DNA of 64,000 nucleotides, taken from positions 744,001 to 808,000 of the forward strand of contig NZ_JAGJBZ010000003.1 of assembly GCF_020010925.1 (NCBI RefSeq), given 5' to 3'. The notes below the pieces were generated by a model. The model saw only the letters and a list, made by a program, of their open reading frames with translations. It was not told where the DNA came from and did not search any database. The first letter of the stretch is position 1, and each line of letters begins with the position of its first letter. Origin of the DNA: Streptomyces griseiscabiei. Its GTDB lineage: Bacteria; Actinomycetota; Actinomycetes; Streptomycetales; Streptomycetaceae. Position numbers and translations under genes: made by a program. This document shows, in pieces, positions 1-11,501 of this stretch.

Positions 1-1
1 C

Positions 2-226
2 TATCCCAAATTCGTCGATCTTCCGGCCGCTGCCAGAGCGCTGGGGATCGCTAAATCCACCGCTTATCGGATGGTGAGAGCGGGATCCTTTCCCTGTCCG
101 GCCGCGCACGTGGGGCGCAGCTATCAGGTACCCACGAAGGCTCTGATGAATTCTCTATCCATTTCGGATTCTATCGTTCACCCGGATGATGTGAAAAATG
201 GGGCAGATCATGCCCACGGAAAGTGA
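2..226 (+). CDS. Excisionase-like HTH DNA-binding protein (5' end cut off by window)
   Basis: The frame is open from the window edge to TGA at 224-226 (74 residues seen). It reads as a winged-helix HTH_17/excisionase-type domain: a DLPAAARALGIAKSTAYRMV helix-turn-helix, then a basic wing with GRSYQVPTKAL. Such small proteins accompany integrases of actinomycete integrative elements, or act as small activators. The codons (CTA, AAA, ATT, TTT, AGA) and lower GC differ clearly from the genes to the right, which suggests horizontal origin. No integrase is visible downstream, so any partner must lie to the left. The family is fairly clear; the Xis role is inference. Confidence 0.6.
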   Translation, partial: YPKFVDLPAAARALGIAKSTAYRMVRAGSFPCPAAHVGRSYQVPTKALMNSLSISDSIVHPDDVKNGADHAHGK

Positions 227-314: not shown

Positions 315-1358
315 TCAGCCGAAGGCAAGTGTGCGGAAGTGGTTGCGGATGTCTGCCAGGGATTGTCGGTCGCGGGTGTAGTAGAGCTTGTTGGTCAGCA
401 GCGCTGACCACCGCTGAAGCCGGGGTGATACCCACATGCCAGTTCCTGTGAAGCCGTAGTGGACCCAGATTTCGTCGCCGGGACCGGTGCCGGGGGCGGG
501 GTGCCAGAACAGGCCGCGTGGAGGGTTCAAGGAACTCGTTTGGATGGTGAGCGATGCCTCACTCCAGGCGCGCCCGAATCCTGCGCGTTCGGCGAAGGCG
601 TTGTTGTCCAGCATGTAGCGCAGGAAGCGGGCGAGGTCGTCGAGGACGGTGAAGGCGCCGGCGATACCGCATACGCCGCCGAGGAGGCGGGCGGAGAAAT
701 CGTGGGCGGTGCCCTTGAGGTGGGTGTTGGTGTCCGGGTCGAGTTCGGTGGGCGCGCATCTGGCGGCGGTCTCGGCGGGTAGGGGGCCGAAGCGGGTGGA
801 GTTCATGCCCAGGGGCTGCCAGGTCCGTTCCGTGGCGAGTTGGTCGAGGGGCTGGCCGGAGAGGTGTTCGGCGAGGTAGCCGAGGATGAGTGCGGCTCGG
901 TCGGTGTATTCGACGGCCTCCCCCGGTGGGCGGTGCAGGGCTTCGTGGAGCACGCCGTCGCGGATGTCCTGGGGGTCGGTGCCGTACAGGTTCTTCAGTT
1001 GGGCCCGTAGCGGGACCCCTGCGGTGTGGGTGAGGAGTTGGCGGGCGGTCACGGTCGCGAGCGGGTGGCCGTCGACTTCCAGCCAGAAATCCCCGAGGGG
1101 GGCGTCGAGGTCGAGTTTGCCTTCCTCCCATAGAGCGCCGATGGAGGACCAGACGGCGAGGATCTTGGTGAGGCTCGCGGCGTCGAAGACGGTGTCAGGG
1201 CGCATCGGAGCGTGCGGTTCGGTGGGGTCGAGGACGCCGGTGGTGCCATGGGCTTGGATGCCCGAGGCATCGCCGACGGCCCAGACGGCGCCGGGGTAGA
1301 CCTTGTTGCGGACACCTTCGTCGAGCAGGGTTTCGATGCGGTCGGTGCGGTACGTCAT
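315..1358 (-). CDS. Serine hydrolase, beta-lactamase/class C PBP family
   Basis: A 347-residue beta-lactamase-fold serine hydrolase. The SxxK motif is S62-L-T-K65, a YTD sits at the YxN position near residue 150, and HYGFTGTG near 298 takes the place of the KTG/HxG motif. There is no signal peptide, so it should be cytoplasmic: an esterase or amidase rather than an exported DD-peptidase. ATG 1358 is chosen over the ATG eight codons upstream because AGGGAG lies just before it. It is the last gene of the minus-strand operon, 100 bases after the glycosyltransferase. The family is solid; the substrate (possibly an ester or amide in the operon's product) is unknown. Confidence 0.82.
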   Translation of the reverse strand: MTYRTDRIETLLDEGVRNKVYPGAVWAVGDASGIQAHGTTGVLDPTEPHAPMRPDTVFDAASLTKILAVWSSIGALWEEGKLDLDAPLGDFWLEVDGHPLATVTARQLLTHTAGVPLRAQLKNLYGTDPQDIRDGVLHEALHRPPGEAVEYTDRAALILGYLAEHLSGQPLDQLATERTWQPLGMNSTRFGPLPAETAARCAPTELDPDTNTHLKGTAHDFSARLLGGVCGIAGAFTVLDDLARFLRYMLDNNAFAERAGFGRAWSEASLTIQTSSLNPPRGLFWHPAPGTGPGDEIWVHYGFTGTGMWVSPRLQRWSALLTNKLYYTRDRQSLADIRNHFRTLAFG

Positions 1359-1458
1359 GGTCTCCCTGTTCGCCGTGGGCATCCCGCTGGTCAGCGTAGT
1401 GACGGGGATGGATGGGGTGTGGCAATGGCGTGTCGGGCATCAGCCGGCCCGGGTCGTT

Positions 1459-2574
1459 CTAGGTGAGGTGACGGCCCAGGTCGGCCAGGGCCTGGGCGGT
1501 GGCGGAGAGCGGGTAGCGGGCGGCATTGGCGTGGCTGGCCTGGCGCAGGGCCGAGAGCAGGCCAGGTGTCGTGCGTAGCCGGTCCAGGTCGCGGGCGAGG
1601 GCGGCGGGGTTGGTGAAGTCGGTTGCCACTCCGGAGGCGGCGAGGGCTTCGCTGAGGCCGGGTACGGGTTGGTACAGGACGGGGAGGCCGCAGGCTTGGG
1701 CCTCGAGTGCGACCAGGCCCATGGCCTCCAGGGTGGTGGAGGGCATGACCAGTAGGTCGTGTTCGGTGAAGGTTTTCCACAGCTGTGGGCGGCGGAGCCA
1801 GCCGAGGTAGCGGGCTCGTATGCCGACTCGTTGCAGCAGCGGGGTCAGGGTGTGGAACTGGGCTTGTGGTGCGGCGACGCTCAGTTCGACGCCCGGTACC
1901 GAGGCCAGGCTCTTGACCAGAGAGGCGGCGCCCTTCTCGGCTGTGAGTCGGCCCGCGTACAACAGCCGTAGGTGGCTCGTTGAAGGTCGGGCAGGTCGGG
2001 CCGGCGGATCGGTGATCAGGTGGTCGGGGATGCCCCAGGGGATGTGGGTGATCTTGCGGCGGTTGACCAGTGGGACGAGTTTGCGGAGTTGGTCTGCCAT
2101 CGCGCTGGTGGGGACGACGATGGCGTCGGCCGCCTTGGTGGTCTCGTGTAGCACCTGGAGCTGGTCACGATGGGCCTCGGCGTAGAGCAGGTCGGTGCCG
2201 TGGACCAGGGCGATGCGGGGGTGTGCGGGAAGCGCGCGGATCAGCGCGGGGGTGGCGCCGAAGGTGAGGTGCTGGAGGTGCAGGACATCGATCCGGGTCG
2301 GGTCGATCGCGGCCGCCAGTGCCGAGCGCAGGGCGTCGATGTAACGGCTGAAGGCGGGGCCCTCCAGGCACTTCCCGGGGACTTGGAGGAGGTCGAGCCC
2401 GGCCGGGAGGTGAAGTCGCGGGCCGGTGGGAGCGAGCATGAATGCCCGCGCAGGGATGAGTGGTCGCTCGCCCGTGTAGAGGTCGAGGAAGAGTTCGACG
2501 CTGCCTCCCGGGCTTCCGGCAGGCAGGTCCAGCAGGGTGGCGGCCAGGGGCCCAGCGGTCGGTTCCGGGGTCAC
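1459..2574 (-). CDS. Glycosyltransferase family 4
   Basis: 371 residues with a GT-B fold of the GT4 type. The N-terminal half is an acceptor domain (HLQHLTFG, LVHGTD). The C-terminal half begins at LLYAGRLTAEKG and carries the EX7E nucleotide-sugar motif in LEAMGLVALE, about residue 285. The start is GTG at 2574, sharing GTGA with the stop of the preceding dCTP-deaminase-like gene, so the two are translationally coupled. Reading this gene from further upstream would run through the deaminase-like gene in the wrong frame. Retaining GTs of this kind transfer sugars from nucleotide donors. The acceptor is unknown; it could be the nucleoside-like or enolpyruvyl product of the operon. Confidence 0.85.
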   Translation of the reverse strand: MTPEPTAGPLAATLLDLPAGSPGGSVELFLDLYTGERPLIPARAFMLAPTGPRLHLPAGLDLLQVPGKCLEGPAFSRYIDALRSALAAAIDPTRIDVLHLQHLTFGATPALIRALPAHPRIALVHGTDLLYAEAHRDQLQVLHETTKAADAIVVPTSAMADQLRKLVPLVNRRKITHIPWGIPDHLITDPPARPARPSTSHLRLLYAGRLTAEKGAASLVKSLASVPGVELSVAAPQAQFHTLTPLLQRVGIRARYLGWLRRPQLWKTFTEHDLLVMPSTTLEAMGLVALEAQACGLPVLYQPVPGLSEALAASGVATDFTNPAALARDLDRLRTTPGLLSALRQASHANAARYPLSATAQALADLGRHLT

Positions 2575-3107
2575 CGGACTCCTCCGGGGTTCTCTTCGTA
2601 GAGGCGGGAGATGTCGATGCCGTTCGTCGCTGCGTACTTGGCGTTCTGTTCCTGGTAGCTGGCTGGCGTGCCGAAGGCGGTGAGGAAGACGAGCTTGCCG
2701 AAGGTCATGCCCGCGTAGATGCGCACCGGCCGGGCGGCGCGGATCTCCAGGGTCCAACGGATGGCGTGACCTTGGTGGCCGAGCGGGGCGGAGACGTGAA
2801 CCCAGATACCGAGCGCGCCGATGGTGCGGTCCCCGTTGAGTATCTGCGCGTAAGTCTCGGAGCCGGTCTTCTCCAGGGTGACGCCGAGGTAGAAGGCTCC
2901 GGGCTTCAGCACCAGGCCCGCAGCCGGGATGGTCTGCTCGGCGAACTCGGTGGGAACCGCTGCGTCCAGATCGCCGTCGCAGACTCGGATGGTGTCGCCG
3001 AGCCTCCAGTCGTAGGCGTTCGGGGAGAGGCGGGCGGGGTCGTACGGATCGATCGTGATCTCGCCCGCTTGAAGCGCGGCACTGATCGCAGGGCCGGTGA
3101 GGATCAC
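2571..3107 (-). CDS. dCTP deaminase-like protein, paralogue 2 (keeps Glu, loses RSS motif)
   Basis: 178 residues of the Dcd/dUTPase fold, alignable over its whole length with the preceding paralogue and with E. coli Dcd. The position of the catalytic Glu is kept (E121 in RWTLEI). The GRSSxxRL phosphate/substrate motif is replaced by GDRTIGAL (residues 92-99), and the family Asp is His111. It begins at GTG 3107 inside the GTGA shared with its neighbour and ends in the GTGA shared with the glycosyltransferase. Alone it is unlikely to be a normal dCTP deaminase. A heteromer with the neighbour, a new substrate, or a nucleotide sensor are all possible. Confidence 0.82.
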   Translation of the reverse strand: MILTGPAISAALQAGEITIDPYDPARLSPNAYDWRLGDTIRVCDGDLDAAVPTEFAEQTIPAAGLVLKPGAFYLGVTLEKTGSETYAQILNGDRTIGALGIWVHVSAPLGHQGHAIRWTLEIRAARPVRIYAGMTFGKLVFLTAFGTPASYQEQNAKYAATNGIDISRLYEENPGGVR

Positions 3108-3643
3108 GAGGCGACTGCCTTGAGGCGGGCCACGTCGCGCCAGTAGGCGGAGGGCTGCGCACCGATGGCCGCCTGGTACTTGCCCTGGTACAAGGCGATA
3201 GCGCCGGTGGACACGAAGAACATGATCTGCCCGATCCGCATGCCCGCGTACACCCGTAGTGGACGGATCGGGGAGAGCATCAGCGTCCACTGCCCGTGGA
3301 AGCCGATGTCCCCGATCGGGGCCGTGATCTCGACGAACAGCCCGAGCCTGCCGACGGAGGAGCGGCCGAACAGCAGCGGCACGAAGGAGTCGGAGCCGAC
3401 CTGTTCGACGGTGTGCCCGAGGTACAACTCGCCGGGTTGGAGCACGTATCCGTTCTCCCCGATCGTGACCTCGCGGGTGGGGTTGGGGCGGTGGGCGTCG
3501 ATCACGGTGTCGGTGTAGGTCAGCAGGGTGGGGCCGAGGCGGACGTTGTAGCTGTTGGGGTTGACCTGTTCCGGTTCGAAGGGGTCGATGGTCAGGCGCC
3601 CGTCGTGGGCAGCGGCGGTGATCTCGGGCCCGGTGAGGATCAT
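3104..3643 (-). CDS. dCTP deaminase-like protein, paralogue 1 (keeps RSS motif, Glu replaced by Met)
   Basis: 179 residues of the dCTP deaminase/dUTPase superfamily. It has the NSYNVRLG start of the jelly roll, the canonical GRSSVGRLGL (R94, S95, R99) and the GDIGFHG loop (D112). The residue aligned with the catalytic Glu of E. coli Dcd (E138) is Met122, in QWTLML; the codon is clearly ATG. It starts at ATG 3643, overlapping the phosphoesterase stop in ATGA, and its stop overlaps the next paralogue. Family knowledge predicts a trimer with interfacial active sites, so pairing with paralogue 2 is plausible. Loss of deamination by the homotrimer is inferred. Confidence 0.83.
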   Translation of the reverse strand: MILTGPEITAAAHDGRLTIDPFEPEQVNPNSYNVRLGPTLLTYTDTVIDAHRPNPTREVTIGENGYVLQPGELYLGHTVEQVGSDSFVPLLFGRSSVGRLGLFVEITAPIGDIGFHGQWTLMLSPIRPLRVYAGMRIGQIMFFVSTGAIALYQGKYQAAIGAQPSAYWRDVARLKAVAS

Positions 3644-4875
3644 TGCTTGCCTCCTGCCGTGGTGTCGGCAGCGCCCGCCAGGGGTGAGACCAGGACGCTT
3701 CGTACGGCTTGGCCGAGCCGTAGTCCGGCTTGATGTGTCCGTCCGCCGAGGTGGCTGTCGGCGAGATAGTCAGTCGTCAACACGCTCCTCGTCGCCGGGG
3801 ACAGAGGAGTTGGAGCGATGACCAGAGGACCGACGCGGTCGGCGACGTGGCCGAGCAACTGCTTGCGGTCCTGGGCGTGGTCGTCGGGGAGGCGGGCGTG
3901 GACGAGTTGATTGTCGAAGGGCTCGATCGTCAGCAGCTCGCCGAGGGTGAGTACTTCTCCGAGCGTCGTGGAGCGCAGGGCAGTCTCGTTGAGGACGACC
4001 GCGTCCGCGCCGAGGCCCGAGTGCAGTCGGCTGGCGACCTCTGTCAGCAACTGGCGGCGGTCCAAAGGGGTGTTGCGGTATGGCTCGTTCACGGTACCGA
4101 GCGGGCCCGCGAGCGTCCGGCCGACAAGCGCGATCTTGTCTCGCAGCGTGGCGAGGTCTTCGGGCAGCCCGTGCGAGTTGGGGAAGGTGCCCGTGCGGGC
4201 GGCCCAGCCGGTTCCGACGGGCTCTGCGGTGGCGTACCCGATGCCGAGTTCGCGTCCCTTGACCACGAGGGTGTCGCCGACGGCCACGGGGCCGTACGTG
4301 CTGCTGTGGCAGTGCCCGGAGAAGATGACGTCAACGAAGGGGAAGGCGGCGGCCAGCTTCAGGTCCTCGTCGAAGCCGGAGTGGGACAGCACGATCCAGG
4401 TGTCGGCGCGGTGGTGGTGTTCGAGCATCACCTCGCGCAGGGCCTGAGCAGGGTCGGTGACGTGGTGACCGATGCGTTCGCCGACGGGAATCGCGTCGAA
4501 CGCCCGGGCCCCGATCACTGCGGTGACGGCGGCGCGTCGGCCGGCGATCCGCTCTATGCGTACGCGGTCGAAGAGGGGTTTGCCAGCGTCGTCAATCGTG
4601 TTGGCGCACACGGTCATCGCGCGGAGCTCTGGCTCGAAGTGGTGCCGCCAGCCATGGTTCCCGGGGGCCAGCAAGTCGTACAGGCTGGTCAGGATCTCGC
4701 GCTCGATGTGGCCTTGGCCGAGACGGTAGAAGCCGGTGCCTTCGAAGAAGTCGCCGCAGTCCACGATCAGGCTTTCGGCCCTGGCGGCATGGATGTGGGC
4801 GAGCATCGGTGCGGGGGAGGCGAACGAGGAGTGGATGTCGGTCGTGGCGATGATCCGCCGTAACTGCCGGTTCAT
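3640..4875 (-). CDS. 5'-nucleotidase-like metallophosphoesterase
   Basis: 411 residues of the UshA/5'-nucleotidase family. Metal-binding motifs are in order: TTDIHSS (DxH), VDCGDFF (GD), PGNHGW (the GNH box, with Gly where D/E is usual), LSHSGF and FSGHCHS (GHxH). A 5'-nucleotidase C-terminal substrate domain follows (residues about 260-390). There is no signal peptide, unlike periplasmic UshA, so it should act on cytoplasmic nucleotides or nucleotide conjugates. ATG 4875 overlaps the MurA-like stop as ATGA. Codon 5 is TTA (4861-4863), which implies tRNA-Leu(UUA)/bldA dependence. The specific substrate is unknown. Confidence 0.82.
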   Translation of the reverse strand: MNRQLRRIIATTDIHSSFASPAPMLAHIHAARAESLIVDCGDFFEGTGFYRLGQGHIEREILTSLYDLLAPGNHGWRHHFEPELRAMTVCANTIDDAGKPLFDRVRIERIAGRRAAVTAVIGARAFDAIPVGERIGHHVTDPAQALREVMLEHHHRADTWIVLSHSGFDEDLKLAAAFPFVDVIFSGHCHSSTYGPVAVGDTLVVKGRELGIGYATAEPVGTGWAARTGTFPNSHGLPEDLATLRDKIALVGRTLAGPLGTVNEPYRNTPLDRRQLLTEVASRLHSGLGADAVVLNETALRSTTLGEVLTLGELLTIEPFDNQLVHARLPDDHAQDRKQLLGHVADRVGPLVIAPTPLSPATRSVLTTDYLADSHLGGRTHQAGLRLGQAVRSVLVSPLAGAADTTAGGKQ

Positions 4876-6191
4876 GGCGTGACCTCGCAGATGTCGGCGC
4901 CGAGGGCGTACAGCTTGGTAGGGAGGTCGGCGTGGCCCCGTCGGAGCTGGTCGAGGCCGCCCAGCGTGGTGACACCGTGCGCTGTCAGGCCGGCGATGAG
5001 CAGGGCGGAGCCGCTCCGGATGTCGGTGGCCTCTACTCCGGCGCCGGTCAACTGCTGCGGACCGGTGAGACGGCACTTGGTGGGGGACAGCTCGTGGATC
5101 GCGGCACCGAGACGGGCCAACTGCGGCAGCAGGTTGCCGTGGCGGCCGGGGTTGATCGTGTCGGAGAAGAGATGGGTGCCGGGGCGAGTGAGGGCCAAGG
5201 TCATCAGAGACGGTTCGAAATCGGCGTCCAGGCCACTGGGGGCGAGGGAAGCGATGGCTCGCAGAGACCGGCTCGTTGGACGGGCTTCTGTCGCTCGGAC
5301 CGTAAGCACTTCGTCCTCCGTATCGGCAGGAACCCCGAGCCATCGCAGGGCCCTGACCAAGGGGACGACGTCGTCAGCGCGTACGCCGCAGATACGCGCG
5401 TCGCCGCCTGTGACCGCGATCGCGCAGGCCAGAGTCCCGGCCTCGATCTTGTCGCCGGGCACCCGCCAGACGATGCTCTCTGGGGGAACGGACAAGGGCG
5501 GCGCGAGAACGAGAAGCGCCTCGCCCACTCGGCATTGCCAGCCAGCCGCCCGCAACGCTTCTACGACGGCGAGCACTTCCGGCGAAAGGTTGGGCATCCC
5601 CAGCCGCAGCGGCCGTCCGGCCACGACCGCGCGCAGGAGAGCGGCGATGGTCGCGCCTCGGGACCGGAAGGGCAGCATGATCGAGACGGTTCCGGCCCTG
5701 GGAGTGCTGGCGTCCACGACGTAGCCGCGGTCGTCGACGATCGTGCGGTCCTCGAAGCGTTCATAGACCTTGAAATGCTGCTCCATGCCGCGTTCCCCGA
5801 TCCGGCAGCCGCCCGGCCAGGGGAGCCGCGCCCGCCCGTACGCACCCAGCAGGGCGGGGACGAGGTAGTACGAGGCCCGGATACGGGCGGCAATGTCGAG
5901 GTCGGACCCGGCTTGGGGCTCGTCGCCCGGCAGGATCACCGCGGTCTGCGGGTCGCTGACGGGTCGGGCCGTGTGCCAGCCGGCCTGCTGGAGCAGGGCG
6001 AGCATCGTCTCGACGTCGGCGTTTGCCGGGACGTTGCCCAGGCGCACAGGGCGGTGCAGAGCCGCCGCGGCTGCCAGGAGCGGCAGGGCTGCGTTCTTGG
6101 ACCCGTCGACCGTCACGGAGCCGGTGAGAGGGCTCCCGGGTCGGATGGCCACCACTTCGGCGGCGACTGGAGGGATCCGTACGGCTTTCAA
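4872..6191 (-). CDS. MurA-family enolpyruvyl transferase (non-housekeeping context)
   Basis: 439 residues, full-length EPT/RTPC fold. It keeps DGSKNAALP (K32, N33), the mobile-loop cysteine C129 in PGGCRIGER (the fosfomycin target in MurA), GDKIEAGT, and ATDIRSGSALLIAG with the C-terminal RRGHADLPTKLYALGADI. The start is TTG 6191, with AAAGGAG seven bases upstream. MurA transfers enolpyruvate from PEP to UDP-GlcNAc. This copy sits with nucleotide enzymes rather than murein genes, so it may act on another nucleotide, as NikO-type enzymes do on UMP, or be a resistance or spare MurA. The catalytic residues argue that it is active. Confidence 0.85.
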   Translation of the reverse strand: MKAVRIPPVAAEVVAIRPGSPLTGSVTVDGSKNAALPLLAAAAALHRPVRLGNVPANADVETMLALLQQAGWHTARPVSDPQTAVILPGDEPQAGSDLDIAARIRASYYLVPALLGAYGRARLPWPGGCRIGERGMEQHFKVYERFEDRTIVDDRGYVVDASTPRAGTVSIMLPFRSRGATIAALLRAVVAGRPLRLGMPNLSPEVLAVVEALRAAGWQCRVGEALLVLAPPLSVPPESIVWRVPGDKIEAGTLACAIAVTGGDARICGVRADDVVPLVRALRWLGVPADTEDEVLTVRATEARPTSRSLRAIASLAPSGLDADFEPSLMTLALTRPGTHLFSDTINPGRHGNLLPQLARLGAAIHELSPTKCRLTGPQQLTGAGVEATDIRSGSALLIAGLTAHGVTTLGGLDQLRRGHADLPTKLYALGADICEVTP

Positions 6192-6194
6192 CCG

Positions 6195-6626
6195 TCAACT
6201 CCTTTGCAGAGGAACGTGTCGTGAGGGCTGGGCTGGGCCACCGACCTTGAACTCGGCCCAGCACCGTTTGCCGGACGGCAGCGGATCGACTCCGTGGCGA
6301 TCGGCTAGGGCGGCGACGAGGAACAGGCCGCGCCCGCCCTCTGCCTCCATGTCCGGCAGTCCGGCTCGTGGGACCTTGCGGTCGGCATCGGTCACCTCGA
6401 TCAGCAGACGCTCGCCGTTGAGGCGGGCGCCGGCTGAGATCGGGCCGTGGCCCGCGTGCCGTACCGCGTTCGTCAGCAGTTCGGCAGCGACCAGCTCTGC
6501 CGTGCTCAGCAGGTCCTGGTCGATGGAGGCGTCCCAGCCCCGTATCCCGTTCGCGAGCTGCTGCCGAGCGGAGCGCGCGGCGGCAGGTGTGCCGTGAACG
6601 GAGAATCGGATCTGGTGCGCTTCCAT
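6195..6626 (-). CDS. HATPase_c_2 ATP-binding protein (anti-sigma/RsbW-like)
   Basis: 143 residues of the GHKL fold used by Streptomyces anti-sigma-like regulators. The N box is ELLTNAVRHA, the G1 box is VTDADRKVP and the G2 box is GGRGLFLVAALADRHGV; no phospho-acceptor domain is present. ATG 6626 is preferred over an upstream ATG (6659) because AGGAGG lies seven bases before it. It ends three bases before the TTG of the MurA-like gene and so heads the operon. Family members bind sigma factors or anti-anti-sigma proteins, or are orphan ATPases. A regulatory role here is inferred from position. Confidence 0.8.
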   Translation of the reverse strand: MEAHQIRFSVHGTPAAARSARQQLANGIRGWDASIDQDLLSTAELVAAELLTNAVRHAGHGPISAGARLNGERLLIEVTDADRKVPRAGLPDMEAEGGRGLFLVAALADRHGVDPLPSGKRCWAEFKVGGPAQPSRHVPLQRS

Positions 6627-6741
6627 GAGCTGCCTCCTGGATCGGTGCGGCTGCTCCACGCAACCGCTCCGGAGGCCAGCGGGACTACGCCGTGTGCCGG
6701 GGCCGCATCACTTATGCAAGAGCCGCATCGCGGTGAATTGC

Positions 6742-6761
6742 CGCTCGGTTACGCTCGGTTG
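6742..6761. promoter_or_regulatory. Tandem direct repeat in divergent promoter region
   Basis: CGCTCGGTT occurs twice, exactly 10 bases (one helical turn) apart. The repeats lie in the 167-base gap between the divergent ATP-binding protein gene and the XRE gene. Two GCCGCATC copies flank the same region at about 6702 and 6722. This is the only obvious operator-like element there, and the neighbouring XRE protein is the natural candidate binder. The role is inference. Confidence 0.35.
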
Positions 6762-6793
6762 AGCAGGCAGGATCGGCGACGGCAGAGGGGGCC

Positions 6794-8089
6794 GTGGCAC
6801 AGATGGCCGAAGAACAGAGCGAGGCCAGACGGATCGGCGAAGTGATCCGTCAGGCACGTGTTTTACAGCGGCGCTCGCAGAAGGACGTGGCCGCCGCACT
6901 GGGGTATCACCAGTCAAAGGTGAGCCGCCTGGAGAGCGGCAGGGGCACCGAGGACGTGCGCACACTGCGCGAGATCGCGCAGGTGCTGGACATTCCACTG
7001 CACCGTCTCGGCCTCGCCGCCGCATCTGACACCGGCCCCGCCCCTGAGCCCGGAGCAGAGGACATGCACCGCCGTACCTTCCTTGCCGCGAGCGTGGCCG
7101 CGCTCGCGGCTCCGCCGTCACCATCGTCGTCGACCGCTGCGCATCACGACCTGATCCAGGTCCTGATGCCGGGCACGAGCCCCGCCGCCACCGGCCAAGC
7201 CTTGGGGACCAACGAGCTGCGGGACCGGGTGCGGGCAGTACGCCGGATGTTCTACGTGTGCGACTACGCGGAACTGGAGCAGGCCCTGCCGGGGCTGATC
7301 GCCGACCTGCGTCAGGCCGCTGGCGGAGGTTCCTCCGGCTCGGCGGAGGCGTCCGGGCTGCTCGCGACCGCGTACCAGACATCGGTGAGCCTGCTGCTGA
7401 AGCGAGCCGATCAGGGCAACGCCTGGCTTGCGGCCGGTCGGGCCATGGCCGAGGCGGAACGGTCCGGGGACCCGGTCGTCCTCGCCGCCAGCGTCCGCGT
7501 GCACGCCCATGTCCTGGTACGGGACAAGCACACCGCCCAGGCCGTGAACATGGTCCGCCACACCGCCGACCAGCTCACCGGCTCCTACGACCAGCGCTCG
7601 CCCCGGTACCTGGCGGCAGTCGGACTGCTCCTGCTGCGGGGAGCGACGGCCGCCAGCAGAAACGGCGATCGCGCCACCACCCAGGACTTCCTCACCGAGG
7701 CCAAGGAAGTGGCCCGCTTCGTCGCCTTCGACCAGCCGGACGCCTGGGCGAACTTCAGCCCCACCAACGTCGCCCTGCACGAGGTCAGCGCTGCCGTCTC
7801 CTTCGGCGACGCCGGCATAGCCCTACAGACCGCACGACCCCTCATGCGCCGACACATTCCCGTCCCCGAGCGCCGGGCCGCCCTCTGGGTGGAGACCGCC
7901 CGCGCCTACAGTCAGCAGGGCAGACTCGCCGACGGCTACCAGGCCCTGCGCATCGCCGAAAGCTGCGCGGCACAGGACATCCGCCGCCCGGCCGTACGCG
8001 AACTGGTCGCCGACATGGCAGCCCGCGACCGCCGCCGGGCCCTGCCCGAGTTGCACCACTTCAGCCGCCAACTGGGAGTGTCCGCGTGA
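6794..8089 (+). CDS. XRE-family transcriptional regulator with TPR-like C-terminal domain
   Basis: 431 residues. An N-terminal lambda-repressor HTH (about 14-70: QKDVAAALGYHQSKVSRLESGRG) is followed by a linker. A long helical TPR-type domain then follows, typical of Streptomyces XRE regulators paired with flavoproteins. The start is GTG 6794 with GAGGGGG upstream; ATG 6803 is an alternative. Leu24 is encoded by TTA (6863-6865), so translation should depend on bldA tRNA and be late or developmental. Its stop overlaps the GTG of the flavoprotein gene (GTGA). It is divergent from the left operon and is the likeliest local regulator of it. Confidence 0.83.
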   Translation: MAQMAEEQSEARRIGEVIRQARVLQRRSQKDVAAALGYHQSKVSRLESGRGTEDVRTLREIAQVLDIPLHRLGLAAASDTGPAPEPGAEDMHRRTFLAASVAALAAPPSPSSSTAAHHDLIQVLMPGTSPAATGQALGTNELRDRVRAVRRMFYVCDYAELEQALPGLIADLRQAAGGGSSGSAEASGLLATAYQTSVSLLLKRADQGNAWLAAGRAMAEAERSGDPVVLAASVRVHAHVLVRDKHTAQAVNMVRHTADQLTGSYDQRSPRYLAAVGLLLLRGATAASRNGDRATTQDFLTEAKEVARFVAFDQPDAWANFSPTNVALHEVSAAVSFGDAGIALQTARPLMRRHIPVPERRAALWVETARAYSQQGRLADGYQALRIAESCAAQDIRRPAVRELVADMAARDRRRALPELHHFSRQLGVSA

Positions 8090-8631
8090 GTGACCAGCCC
8101 GACAAGCCCCTCCTCCAGATCGTGGTCTGCGCGGCCGGAGTCGCCGGTGACGTCGGCAAACTGATCACCGCAGCGCACGAGCGGCAGTGGGACGTCGGTG
8201 TCGTCGCCACACCACAAGGGCTCGGCTTCCTCGACGTGGAGGCGGTGGAGAGCCAGATCGGACGCCCCATCCGCTCGGCCTGGCGCTCGGCGGGCGAGCC
8301 GCGCCCGACCCGGCCCGCCGACGCGATCACGGTCGCCCCGGCCAGCTTCAACACCGTCAACAAATGGGCCGCCGGAATCTCCGACAACCTCGCCCTCGGC
8401 ATCCTCTGCGAAGCTCCAGCCATGGACATCCCCATCGCCGTACTGCCGTACCTGAACTCCGCGCAGGCCGCTCACCCCGCATACCGCCGGAGTCTGGAGC
8501 AACTGCGCGAGATGGGGGTGCTCATCGGCTCGTACGAGCCTCATCGGCCGAAGGCGGGCGGAGGGGCCGGCCGCTACCGCTGGGAAGAAGTGCTGGAGTT
8601 GCTGGCCCCCAAGCTGTCCGCGCGGTCGTGA
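8086..8631 (+). CDS. Flavoprotein of the HFCD/CoaC-like family
   Basis: 181 residues starting at GTG 8086, coupled to the XRE gene by a GTGA overlap. The N-terminal LQIVVCAAGVAGDVGKLI strand-loop and the PASFNTVNKWAAGISDNLAL motif are the FMN-binding signatures of homo-oligomeric flavin-containing Cys decarboxylases (PPC decarboxylase, EpiD, UbiX-like). The Asn-rich PASFNTVNKW replaces the usual PA(T/S)ANT. Such XRE-flavoprotein pairs are common in Streptomyces without a defined function. It could oxidatively decarboxylate a substrate or act as a redox sensor for the regulator; this is not known. Confidence 0.8.
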   Translation: MSDQPDKPLLQIVVCAAGVAGDVGKLITAAHERQWDVGVVATPQGLGFLDVEAVESQIGRPIRSAWRSAGEPRPTRPADAITVAPASFNTVNKWAAGISDNLALGILCEAPAMDIPIAVLPYLNSAQAAHPAYRRSLEQLREMGVLIGSYEPHRPKAGGGAGRYRWEEVLELLAPKLSARS

Positions 8632-8761: not shown

Positions 8762-10060
8762 TCAGGGCCACACCAGGCAGTACGGCTGATGCCCCGCCTC
8801 GTGCAGGCGGTGGCTGAAGTCCTGCCATTCGTGGAGCAGTTGGTAGACGTTGAACGCGTCGCGGGGGCCGCCGCGGTCCGGGACCGTGGACCAGATGAAG
8901 GCCGCCGCGCCGACCGCTTCCTCGCCGATGCCTCGGAGGGGGTCGACGACGGTCATGGGGAGCTTCACGACGGCGTAGTCGGGGTGGAGGACGACCAGTT
9001 CGAGCGGGGGCACCTTGTGCAGGGGGACGCCTTCGATGCCGGTCAGCACCATCGCGGCCATGGTCTCCGGCTTGATCTTGGTGAACATGCCGTTCATGCC
9101 CAGCTCGTCGCCGCCGAGCTCCTCGGGGCGCATGGAGATCGGGACGCGGGCCGCGGTCGCGCCGTCGGGCGCGCCGAAGTATTTGTACGTCACCCCCACC
9201 CGACCACCATTCCTGCTCCCCGCCCGGAGCCGGTTGACCACGTGGTCCAGGCCGTCCACACGGTCCGCGCTCTCCACGCGGTCCGTACGGTCCGCACGGC
9301 TCCTGCGCTCCGCGCGACTCCTGCGATCCACCAGGTCAGGCCGGTCCATCCGGTCCGTCTGATCCATTCCGTCCACACGATTGACACGATCCACATGATC
9401 GGCGCGATCCATACGGTCCATACCGTCCATACGGCTGCGCCGCCCGATCCGCTCAGGCCCACCGCTCTGGATCCGGTCGGAACCACTGGACGGGACCCGG
9501 TCGGAACCGCTCGGAAGTCGGTCACCACCGGTCTCGGCCCGGCCGTCACCCGCTTCCGTACGGTCGGAGCGGTCGCTTCGGTCGGCCCGGTCGGCGACGC
9601 GGTCGGCGCGGTCCGTACGGTCGCCGCCGTCGCCGCGCGCGCCGTGTGAGTCGTGTGTGCCGTGTGCACCCTGCGGACCGTACACGCCTGGCCGACCCTG
9701 AGGGGAGTACGGGGGCTGTGACCCCGGCGACCCCACGGTGGGGGGCACGGCCGGAGCCGGCGGTACGGGGGGTACGGACGGCGCGGGCGGTCCCGGCGGC
9801 GGCGCCGGCGACGACCCCTGAGGACCCGGCGACGCGGAACCCGCCCCCGACCCGCTCAGCTCACCCGGCGCGCTCCGCTCGGTGGGCGCGCCCCGGTCCG
9901 GGGACCCGCCCCGGTCGGTCGACCCGCTCCGCTCCTGCCGGGTCTCCGCGGCCTCCTCCGCCTCGCGCCGGTGCCTGCCCCGCCGGGCACGACGAGGACC
10001 GAGGTCACCGGTCCCGTCACCCAGTCCGCCACCGCGATGCATATCTCCACCCGAACGCAT
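8762..10060 (-). CDS. Conserved Streptomyces protein with long Asp-Arg repeat region
   Basis: 432 residues. Residues 1-130 are Gly/Pro-rich and disordered. About 145-285 is a degenerate three-residue repeat dominated by DR (DRxDRxDR), strongly zwitterionic. The last 130 residues form an ordinary folded domain (VGVTYKYFGAPDGATAARVP to YCLVWP) that looks conserved. There is no signal peptide or membrane segment. It lies just upstream of and divergent from hemL. I do not recognise the fold. The repeat may be a tether or a phase-separating or polyelectrolyte segment. The coding assignment is supported by the conserved-looking C-terminus and codon bias. Confidence 0.7.
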   Translation of the reverse strand: MRSGGDMHRGGGLGDGTGDLGPRRARRGRHRREAEEAAETRQERSGSTDRGGSPDRGAPTERSAPGELSGSGAGSASPGPQGSSPAPPPGPPAPSVPPVPPAPAVPPTVGSPGSQPPYSPQGRPGVYGPQGAHGTHDSHGARGDGGDRTDRADRVADRADRSDRSDRTEAGDGRAETGGDRLPSGSDRVPSSGSDRIQSGGPERIGRRSRMDGMDRMDRADHVDRVNRVDGMDQTDRMDRPDLVDRRSRAERRSRADRTDRVESADRVDGLDHVVNRLRAGSRNGGRVGVTYKYFGAPDGATAARVPISMRPEELGGDELGMNGMFTKIKPETMAAMVLTGIEGVPLHKVPPLELVVLHPDYAVVKLPMTVVDPLRGIGEEAVGAAAFIWSTVPDRGGPRDAFNVYQLLHEWQDFSHRLHEAGHQPYCLVWP

Positions 10061-10181: not shown

Positions 10182-11501
10182 ATGGCCTGTGTGAGCTATC
10201 CGTACGAAGCCCCAGTTTCGCAGACTCTTTTCGAGCGCGCGGCGGCCGTCACGCCCGGCGGCGTGAACTCTCCCGTGCGCGCCTTCCGCGCCGTGGGCGG
10301 TACGCCCCGGTTCATGGTGTCCGGTACCGGTCCGTATCTGACGGACGCCGACGGCCGCGAGTATGTAGATCTTGTGTGCTCGTGGGGTCCGATGATCCTC
10401 GGGCACTCCCGGCCCGAGGTGATCGCCGCCGTCCAGGAGGCCGTCTCGCGCGGCACCTCCTTCGGTACGCCCGGCGAGGGCGAGGTCGCGCTCGCCGAGG
10501 AGATGGTGGACCGCGTCGGGCCGCTGGAGCAGGTGCGGCTGGTGTCCAGCGGGACCGAGGCCACCATGTCCGCGATCCGGCTCGCCCGCGGGTTCACCGG
10601 CCGCGCCAAGGTGGTGAAGTTCGCCGGGTGTTACCACGGTCACGTCGACTCGCTCCTCGCGGCGGCGGGCAGTGGTGTCGCCACCTTCGCGCTGCCCGAC
10701 ACCCCGGGTGTCACCGGCGCCCAGGCCGGCGACACCATCGTGCTGCCCTACAACGACCTCGACGCCGTGCGCGCCGCCTTCGCCGCCCACCCCGGCGAGA
10801 TCGCCTGCGTGATCACCGAGGCGTCCCCGGGCAACATGGGCGTCGTCCCGCCGCTGCCGGGCTTCAACCAGGGCCTCAAGGACGTCTGCGCGGAGCACGG
10901 CGCCCTCTTCGTCTCCGACGAGGTGATGACCGGGTTCCGCACCAGCCGCGCCGGGTGGTTCGGGATCGACGGGGTCGAGCCGGACCTGATGACCTTCGGC
11001 AAGGTGATGGGCGGCGGCTTCCCCGCCGCGGCCTTCGGCGGCCGGGCCGACGTCATGGCCCGCCTCGCGCCCGCCGGGCCCGTCTACCAGGCCGGCACGC
11101 TCTCCGGGAACCCGGTCGCGACGGCCGCCGGGCTCGCGCAGCTGCGGCTGCTGGACGAGGCGGCGTACGGCGTCGTCGACGCGGTGTCCCGTCGGATCCA
11201 GGGGCTCGTCACCGACGCGCTCACCAAGGAAGGTGTCGCGCACACGCTGCAGCGCGCCTCCAACATGTTCTCCGTGTTCTTCACGGACACGCCCGTGCGG
11301 AACTACGAGGAGGCCAAGGCGCAGGAGTCGTTCCGCTTCAACGCCTTCTTCCACTCGATGCTGTCGCAGGGCGTCTACTTGCCGCCGTCGTCGTTCGAGT
11401 CGTGGTTCGTGTCGACCGCGCACGACGAGCGGGCGGTTCAGCGGATCGCCGACGCCCTTCCGGCGGCGGCGCGGGCAGCAGCGGAGGCTTCGGCAGCATG
11501 A
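10182..11501 (+). CDS. hemL: Glutamate-1-semialdehyde 2,1-aminomutase
   Basis: 439 residues, class III PLP aminotransferase fold. Seen are [32 protein letters not shown], the GCYHGH motif, SDEVMTGFR, and the PLP lysine in [17 protein letters not shown]. It converts glutamate-1-semialdehyde to 5-aminolevulinate in the C5 pathway of tetrapyrrole synthesis, in the cytosol. ATG 10182 is used; GTG 10191 is possible. Its stop overlaps the ATG of the phosphatase (ATGA), so they form an operon. The nearby cytochrome c maturation genes make a coherent haem neighbourhood. Confidence 0.97.

Follow-up and report, generated by a model that had tools for sequence, protein, structure and literature searches.

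In the dCTP deaminase of Escherichia coli (Dcd), motifs II and III of one active site are contributed by different subunits, and the variants R115A and E138Q are reportedly dead. Enzymes of this kind are also used in known defence. In the MurA/EPSP transferases, catalytic roles fall to Lys22, Cys115, Arg120, Asp305, Arg371 and Arg397 (E. coli numbering), and the nucleoside supply of tunicamycin (TunN/TunG) leads from NTP to NMP and on to the nucleoside, accompanied by a glycosyltransferase and a deacetylase. Deaminase and dUTPase activities are combined in bifunctional DCD-DUT enzymes, such as Rv0321 of M. tuberculosis and 1ogh of M. jannaschii. Homotrimers with active sites in the inter-subunit clefts are described in PMC4827122, and PMC3360063 names Ser102, Asp119 (equivalent to E. 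coli Asp128) and Gln148 as indispensable for dUTP hydrolysis, with the catalytic water positioned by Asp119. A precedent for a MurA-family enzyme in a cluster with a phosphatase is given by NikO/PolA with PolH and PolJ (PMC5365060).

The locus compared here lies in a 64,000-nucleotide stretch of Streptomyces griseiscabiei DNA (contig NZ_JAGJBZ010000003.1, positions 744,001 to 808,000; hereafter the window) and consists of the following genes and codons:

315..1358, minus strand: serine hydrolase with beta-lactamase/class C fold (Pfam Beta-lactamase, 6.6e-49; ATG at 1358)
1459..2574, minus strand: GT4-type glycosyltransferase (Pfam Glycos_transf_1, 9.3e-18)
2571..3107, minus strand: DCD2, putative beta subunit (Pfam DCD, 5.5e-25)
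2745..2747, minus strand: codon of DCD2 Glu121, at the position of E. coli Dcd Glu138
3104..3643, minus strand: DCD1, putative alpha subunit (Pfam DCD, 2.6e-43)
3278..3280, minus strand: codon of DCD1 Met122, at the position of E. coli Dcd Glu138
3640..4875, minus strand: phosphoesterase (PPase) with UshA/5'-nucleotidase outline (Pfam Metallophos, 6.9e-8)
4872..6191, minus strand: MurA-like enolpyruvyl transferase (Pfam EPSP_synthase, 1.3e-33)
6195..6626, minus strand: HATPase, the first gene of the operon (Pfam HATPase_c_2, 1.3e-13; weak match to an RsbA-type anti-sigma family)
6794..8089, plus strand: divergent XRE regulator with a TPR-like part (Pfam HTH_3, 9.8e-10; NsdA-family match below cut-off)
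8086..8631, plus strand: flavoprotein of a CoaC/Dfp-like family (Pfam Flavoprotein, 8.4e-12)

On the minus strand, the genes for the MurA-like protein, the phosphoesterase, DCD1, DCD2 and GT4 are joined by four 4-base overlaps (4872-4875, 3640-3643, 3104-3107 and 2571-2574), as a preliminary description of the locus had reported; its coordinates were right, and its gene names are backed by Pfam. It had also correctly placed the HATPase gene ahead of the MurA-like gene, but had not named it among the linked genes. Since the HATPase gene stops only 3 bases before the MurA-like start, we count it as an operon member. The XRE and flavoprotein genes, which overlap by 4 bases, are indeed divergent from the operon.

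The gene order is not strain-specific: dozens of Streptomyces species share it, and Promicromonospora has it as a core of six genes. The search with the MurA-like protein gave 74 loci, among them one ordinary distant relative (L077), and the block is present in about 32/295 Streptomyces genomes. Where the flank was sufficient, the loci contained PPase (70/71), DCD1 (68/70), DCD2 (68/70), GT4 (66/68), the serine hydrolase (63/65), the HATPase (68/72), XRE (69/71) and the flavoprotein (69/71). The 4-base overlaps were kept in 67/72 (MurA/PPase), 51/69 (PPase/DCD1), 65/70 (DCD1/DCD2) and 51/68 (DCD2/GT4) of the MurA-like loci; therefore, the operon linkage exceeds chance. Of the 61 loci displayed, 25 have a 3-base gap between HATPase and MurA-like gene and 20 have a 2-base gap. 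The top-ranked matches in the openly licensed PMC literature described neither this gene set nor a heteromeric DCD, in line with the earlier statement that the set lacks a described counterpart, and as far as could be found this widely shared Streptomyces gene set is apparently undescribed.

The two DCD proteins differ from both described enzyme types in how their catalytic residues are distributed. DCD1 keeps Ser95, Arg99, Asp112 and Gln139 but has Met122 in place of the deaminase Glu, and DCD2 keeps Glu121 but carries H111 for the Asp, R94 and A98 for S111 and R115 of motif II, and K138 for the dUTPase Gln. The dCTP deaminase set S111, R115 and Glu138 is found in neither single protein (S/R/M in DCD1, R/A/E in DCD2), and the dUTPase residues Ser102, Asp119 and Gln148 (M. 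tuberculosis numbering) are all present in DCD1, with none in DCD2. Against TIGR02274 (cut-off 92.8), DCD1 scored above (107.2 bits) and DCD2 below (68.0 bits). The best PDB match of DCD1 was 4xjc (7e-24) of B. halodurans, which we take to be a bifunctional enzyme. The pair resembles the bifunctional DCD-DUT enzymes in fold and motifs, in the Ser/Asp/Gln of dUTP hydrolysis kept by alpha and in the lack of an Arg at the E. coli R126 position; however, the key residues of the two activities are here split over two genes, and the window beta retains only the Glu among the residues checked. Likewise, E. coli Dcd shares its Glu138 with beta and its Arg115 and Ser111 with alpha, but R115 and E138 occur together in neither window protein. 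PDB entries 1xs4 (sequence identical in 1xs6 and 2j4q) and 2v9x are E. coli Dcd altered at Glu138. The AlphaFold model of the DCD2 monomer (20 rows) was poor.

This pattern is exceptionless, i.e. 108/108 distinct DCD pairs, 101 of them adjacent and spread over about seven gene contexts, show the (D+,E-)/(D-,E+) state: in alpha, the Asp that serves dUTP hydrolysis (E. coli D128) is retained, with Met or Gln replacing the deaminase Glu E138, and beta keeps the Glu and has lost the Asp. Ser, Asp and Gln are each kept in 75/75 alphas with E to M, and in 25/25, 25/25 and 24/25, respectively, of those with E to Q; the beta Glu is kept in 106/106 distinct sequences. Both D and E are present in 32 distinct Dcds, including that of E. 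coli, and none of these belongs to such a pair; the loci scanned contained no intact solo Dcd in any state other than (D+,E+).

The count started from 123 loci with 105 pairs and reached 108 after further loci were added, near-identical pairs being counted once. Nine loci were dropped for want of an intact pair: in L026, L201, L210 and L189 one partner lay beyond the stretch or contig, L018, L070 and L043 were broken or shortened, and L146 and L147 were solo. Six DCD matches could not be placed in a class, being pieces in L018, L043 and L070 and an antisense frame in L025, and a sixth, weak DCD match of the strain's own genome (L083) was below the score cut. The DCD scan left out L090-L132 (PPase matches with short flanks), L001-L003, L077, L079-L082 and L085-L089. 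The reciprocal loss was absent from the preliminary description.

That each DCD copy has lost a catalytic residue kept by the other suggests a single mixed enzyme. On balance, the conserved block probably encodes a nucleoside-type biosynthetic pathway that builds a small molecule from a pyrimidine nucleotide and a sugar, with DCD1 and DCD2 at its core as a mixed alpha/beta trimer that divides the bifunctional activities; its steps, their order, the substrate and the product are proposed here from gene content and residue pattern. Deamination of a cytosine NTP would take place where alpha supplies motif II/IV (Ser, Arg, Gln) and beta supplies motif III (Glu); at a site where alpha supplies both motif II/IV and motif III (Asp), the uracil NTP so formed would be hydrolysed, giving NMP plus pyrophosphate. 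This NMP, or a nucleotide formed further along, might next be the substrate of the UshA-like phosphoesterase. The MurA-like enzyme could place the enolpyruvyl group of PEP on some nucleotide or nucleotide-sugar that is not UDP-GlcNAc, much as NikO/PolA use UMP; GT4 would attach a sugar, and the serine hydrolase would trim an acyl or ester group or transfer it. The earlier proposal of nucleotide or nucleotide-sugar modification fits the gene content and the related DCD-pair operons. By description, the scheme follows the same logic as the tunicamycin-type supply (for the deacetylase, compare type B), but has a DCD pair where tunicamycin has a NUDIX enzyme.

It is tempting to speculate further, though only tentatively, that small-molecule pathways of actinobacteria and some other bacteria form a family that runs on a split, obligately heteromeric deaminase/diphosphatase, which in the window would be an alpha2-beta trimer with three unlike sites, turning cytosine NTP into uracil NMP for a re-tuned MurA. 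These sites would be a deaminase (alpha motif II with beta Glu), a diphosphatase (alpha motif II with alpha Asp) and a dead one. If true, a bifunctional single protein was split into two subunits that depend on each other, and several different biosynthetic operons took them up; the signature of reciprocal residues would offer a genome-mining handle for a seemingly unexplored class of nucleotide-derived products, and the pair would allow composite active sites of the dUTPase superfamily to be tested cleanly.

Paired-type DCD matches occur in 61/392 Streptomyces genomes. In support of the mixed-enzyme reading, phosphatase, GT4 and tailoring genes accompany the pair in operons of several kinds, also without MurA, where TauD, PIG-L, WbqC, AurF, PhyH, P450, GNAT, aaRS-like and MFS genes are found; one kind combines an MFS transporter with AurF and PhyH. 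The window's own block has no exporter gene. By protein name, the best 120 of 1723 beta relatives include Saccharibacteria, Patescibacteria, Arthrobacter, Rathayibacter and Nitrospirota, and the beta signature was seen by eye in 8/8 relatives retrieved from these 120. In the unmasked tree, type A alphas cluster with full Dcds (93/78), which would mean that the Glu was lost twice; a single clade of all alphas was not rejected by the AU test (p-AU 0.154), and two separate losses are therefore not claimed. The joining of type A beta with type E beta may be long-branch attraction.

These widely differing gene contexts would also suit a DCD heteromer with a new reaction other than cytosine deamination, e.g. 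on a CDP-linked or modified nucleotide, in which Glu and Asp have taken new roles. Beta lacks the Asp (3'-OH contact, water position) and alpha the Glu; two positions ahead of the Asp, the pairs have Ile, Leu or Val in place of the Phe seen in 30/32 Dcds that carry both Asp and Glu. Nevertheless, we consider a new reaction fairly improbable, as the known deaminase and dUTPase residues are kept, i.e. the Glu by every beta and Ser/Asp/Gln by all alphas or almost all of them. Somewhat less probable again is a regulatory role without catalysis, in which at least one of the DCD proteins controls the operon enzymes as a nucleotide sensor or scaffold, as phage dUTPases do for Stl: each window DCD is missing either R115 or E138, which E. 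coli Dcd reportedly cannot do without, and dUTPase-family proteins with a signalling role are described in PMC5593958, but sensors need no complementary catalytic residues, and the complementarity is without exception here.

The composite-enzyme reading also draws on the MurA-like protein, which is not the strain's housekeeping MurA. It reached 237.9 bits against the MurA equivalog TIGR01072 (cut-off 392.7), and a separate protein of the same genome scored 437.9 bits, which disposes of the possibility that it is the sole MurA. The equivalents of catalytic K22, N23, R91, C115 and R120 are kept in 72/72 family sequences, and window K32, C129, R134, D324, R392 and R418, which correspond to E. coli Lys22, Cys115, Arg120, Asp305, Arg371 and Arg397, in 70-72/72. 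The nucleotide-pocket residues P121/V122/K160/V161/V163 are instead G/M/F/R/R in 72/72. The structure model had a pLDDT of 88.6. If the proposed scheme is right, this would be an enolpyruvyl transferase whose substrate is new. NikO/PolA, the UMP 3'-enolpyruvyl transferase of nikkomycin/polyoxin, is a candidate for how it works, being likewise a MurA-family protein clustered with a phosphatase, although the window protein is nearer to MurA in sequence and fold; Pfam and NCBIfam gave no radical SAM family, i.e. no PolH-type partner, among the block's nine genes.

A cell-envelope operon would have UDP-GlcNAc-enolpyruvate formed by the MurA-like enzyme and transferred by GT4, with the serine hydrolase as an enzyme of peptidoglycan type, and would account for the MurA fold and catalytic residues and for the beta-lactamase/DD-peptidase-type gene. 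We regard it as quite improbable given the missed equivalog cut-off, the changed pocket and the strain's own MurA; moreover, neither a signal peptide nor a membrane gene was noticed by eye in the block, and this reading gives no account of the DCD pair, which other loci have without a MurA. A defence role, also offered in the preliminary description, is unlikely, and a nucleotide-depleting or nucleotide-modifying anti-phage system very improbable: GT4 weakly matches GT4-conflict (7.2e-7), but PADLOC gave no match for 8/9 proteins (XRE matches HTH_VI and RmrA in its HTH part only), neither window DCD has the full catalytic set, the block's Pfam matches include no nuclease or toxin family, and 63-70 of 65-72 relatives share its synteny.

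The phosphoesterase has a two-part outline, i.e. a metallophosphatase part and a C-terminal part with a PFDNQLV motif (the latter by eye). It resembles UshA-type 5'-nucleotidases in its metallophosphatase motifs, this 5'-nucleotidase-like C-terminal motif and its PDB matches, which are SoxB and nucleotidases at 7.5e-8 and weaker; however, it has no signal peptide by eye, similarity is low, and the NCBIfam UshA_like and SoxB matches are weak and below cut-off. Relatives of it occur without the DCD pair in L139 (45% identical, adjoining a radical SAM gene) and L135, so the phosphoesterase is not diagnostic. The metallophosphoesterase of Rhizobium L143 could not be aligned with it.

GT4 (1459..2574) reached no NCBIfam cut-off. 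Downstream of it, the serine hydrolase closes the block as its last gene; it lay within the coordinates of the preliminary description but was unnamed there, has its SxxK motif as SLTK, and is as conserved as the other genes.

On the minus strand, the genes, coordinates and four 4-base stop/start overlaps of the preliminary description (MurA-like, UshA-like phosphoesterase [PPase], DCD1, DCD2 and GT4) were all found in the sequence, and its family names were backed by Pfam and NCBIfam. The block is completed by two further genes, which are conserved to the same degree as the others:

6195-6626, minus strand: HATPase gene, with its stop 3 bases ahead of the MurA-like start
315-1358, minus strand: serine hydrolase gene (beta-lactamase fold), downstream of GT4

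The two DCD proteins show a reciprocal loss of catalytic residues. In DCD1 (alpha, D+E-), the Ser, Arg, Asp and Gln are kept and Met stands where Glu is expected, while DCD2 (beta, D-E+) keeps the Glu and has His for the Asp, Arg for Ser111, Ala for Arg115 and Lys for the Gln. Escherichia coli Dcd altered at this Glu (E138) is represented in the PDB by 1xs4 and 2v9x, and the Asp (E. coli D128, M. tuberculosis D119) is described as acting in concert with Ser102 and Gln148 when dUTP is hydrolysed, and as placing the catalytic water (PMC3360063). The same reciprocity was seen in all 108 distinct pairs with both genes intact (105/105 before the last four loci were added), taken from the window's own genome, plasmid records and further genomes. 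By the residue replacing Glu in alpha, 83 pairs are of the M kind (type A plus three type F, see below) and 25 of the Q kind. In 101 pairs the two genes are neighbours; in the other seven they are separated by 4-11 kb, one of these seven (L148, Embleya) being doubtful due to a third DCD on its record.

Counted as distinct sequences, alpha has Met for Glu in 75 and Gln for Glu in 25, with Ser and Arg kept in 100/100 each and the catalytic Gln in 99/100. Beta keeps the Glu in 106/106, and at the Asp position every one has His, Asn or Gln; 86 of these betas (types A, E and F) have also lost motif II and the Gln, which the remaining 20 keep. None of the 32 distinct Dcd sequences carrying Asp and Glu together belongs to a reciprocal pair; they include E. 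coli Dcd, the housekeeping Dcd of the window's genome and two Paenibacillaceae solo genes. Two residues ahead of the Asp, monofunctional E. coli Dcd has an Arg, whereas alpha has Leu, Ile or Val, so that the obstacle to hydrolysis which PMC3360063 describes is absent.

Some DCD matches were irregular. At L043 (type A, about 10552-11204), DCD1 matched over 124 and DCD2 over 93 residues, as if the middle had been deleted; at L018 and L227 (type A, probably the same genome), DCD2 matched partially or as two overlapping pieces. The window's genome has another weak DCD-family match (L083, C2:1069617-1069886, 3.3e-10), which is in no pair.

In a tree of 50 rows with the trait residues masked, beta formed a single clade (98/90), as did alpha of the M kind (100/99), and alpha of the Q kind a single weak one (55/1); a single clade of all alphas was not rejected (p-AU 0.154). 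The reciprocal pattern therefore has one or a few origins, with retention since; the pairs are not independent events. Pair-level matches occurred in 5/394 sampled genomes of the class, all five of the window's genus. Among 392 Streptomyces genomes, 61 matched at E values up to 1e-27, 59 of them at least twice; of the two single-match genomes, one has its locus (L201) at a contig edge and in the other (L227) the beta gene was matched as two overlapping pieces.

The pair occurs in several gene contexts, and the window's genome itself harbours a second, different pair at L084:

Type A: the window's operon
Type B (L084, L133, L134, L136-L138, L220, plasmid L141): rRNA-adenine-dimethylase-like methyltransferase (MTase), PPase, TauD, beta, alpha, PIG-L, WbqC, GT4, ProRS-like
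Type C (plasmids L142, L144, L145, L150-L152; L218; variant L217): P-loop protein, beta, alpha; most also have a cytidine-deaminase-like gene, MTase, nucleotidyltransferase or epimerase, a gene matching radical SAM below threshold or Gfo/Idh, GT4 and HAD hydrolase
Type D (Rhizobium plasmids L143, L149): beta, alpha, MTase, an additional gene (deaminase-like in L143), NUDIX; metallophosphoesterase genes nearby
Type E (L213-L216, L221): about 8-10 kb between the alpha and beta portions, alpha being fused to a PPDK_N part in L213
Type F (L222-L224): DCD1, DCD2 and GT4 closely resembling those of the window, without MurA or PPase; AurF, PhyH, GNAT, HAD and MFS each in at least one of the three loci
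Further type (L211, L219): beta, alpha, class II aaRS-like, MTases, PLP decarboxylase; P450 in L211

At L084 (4829-12727, near the end of contig C2), the rRNA-adenine-dimethylase-like gene comes first and the ProRS-like gene last, and these could serve self-resistance or aminoacyl transfer. The L213 fusion (5634-8267) is an 877 aa open frame joining an alpha-type DCD to PPDK_N/PEP-utiliser; its beta-type DCD, about 10 kb away, adjoins a P-loop protein, with DUF6001 and a type I phosphodiesterase/nucleotide-pyrophosphatase-like gene in between. In the Rhizobium plasmid locus L143, the pair is preceded, a few kb upstream, by genes for the His-Xaa-Ser maturases (hxsB/hxsC; 4929-7417).

A search for the type A gene order in other genomes, as suggested in the preliminary description, gave 73 related loci with the block largely unchanged. 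The MurA-like query had matched 74 loci in genome contigs, nearly throughout in Streptomyces and also in Actinacidiphila and Promicromonospora; L077 (metagenome bin, 27 % identity) was set aside as an ordinary distant relative. Among loci with sufficiently long flanks, PPase was present in 70/71, DCD1 and DCD2 in 68/70 each, GT4 in 66/68, the serine hydrolase in 63/65, HATPase in 68/72, and XRE and flavoprotein, which are divergent from the block, in 69/71 each. The absences at L008, L065, L067 and L075 belong to truncated or decayed loci, the Promicromonospora locus L069 is reduced to the six core genes, lacking HATPase, XRE and flavoprotein, and at L064 and L066 the HATPase lies elsewhere on the opposite strand. 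The exact 4-base overlap was found for MurA/PPase in 67/72, PPase/DCD1 in 51/69, DCD1/DCD2 in 65/70 and DCD2/GT4 in 51/68 loci. Two loci each are present in S. ipomoeae (L005/L058), S. hokutonensis (L033/L039) and Streptomyces sp. MBT53 (L010/L038), and Streptomyces sp. NBC_00161 has a copy on a plasmid.

PPase relatives were found in 39 of 295 sampled Streptomyces genomes, 33 of them close (E <1e-130, read off the list), and one of these 33 (G206) lacks the DCD pair. At its locus L139 (7344-10546), the PPase relative (45 %) directly adjoins a radical SAM gene, reminiscent of the phosphatase and radical SAM pair of polyoxin; DCD genes were not found at this locus.

In dUTPases, each site combines motif II/IV of one subunit with motif III of a different one. 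The active sites of the DCD-family trimer are described as lying in clefts between subunits (PMC4827122). Judging from the residues, we infer that the window's pair may form an alpha2-beta trimer, in which the residues would fit without remainder if the motifs come from different subunits. The Glu of beta (motif III), the sole catalytic residue that beta retains of those checked, would then build the deaminase site with Ser and Arg of alpha, while alpha-alpha contacts (Ser, Asp, Gln) would form the diphosphatase site and the third site would be dead. Such a trimer would account for type A beta losing four catalytic residues with the Glu always kept. Nucleotidase, enolpyruvyl transfer, glycosylation and serine hydrolase steps may follow, by analogy with the enzyme families and with polyoxin, for which 3'-enolpyruvyl-UMP is described as made by NikO/PolA and the phosphatase PolJ as working after the radical SAM enzyme PolH (PMC5365060). 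The enzymes are members of known superfamilies; literature searches of CC-licensed PMC papers showed, among the papers listed, no description of the split DCD pair or of operons built on it.

Near the block, a 432-residue ORF (8762-10060, minus strand) had no Pfam match; its middle is of low complexity and rich in Asp/Arg (18-27 base repeats), and its C-terminal part has an ordinary composition. At the left edge of the window (1-225) lies the 3' end of a gene that by eye looks like an excisionase/HTH gene.
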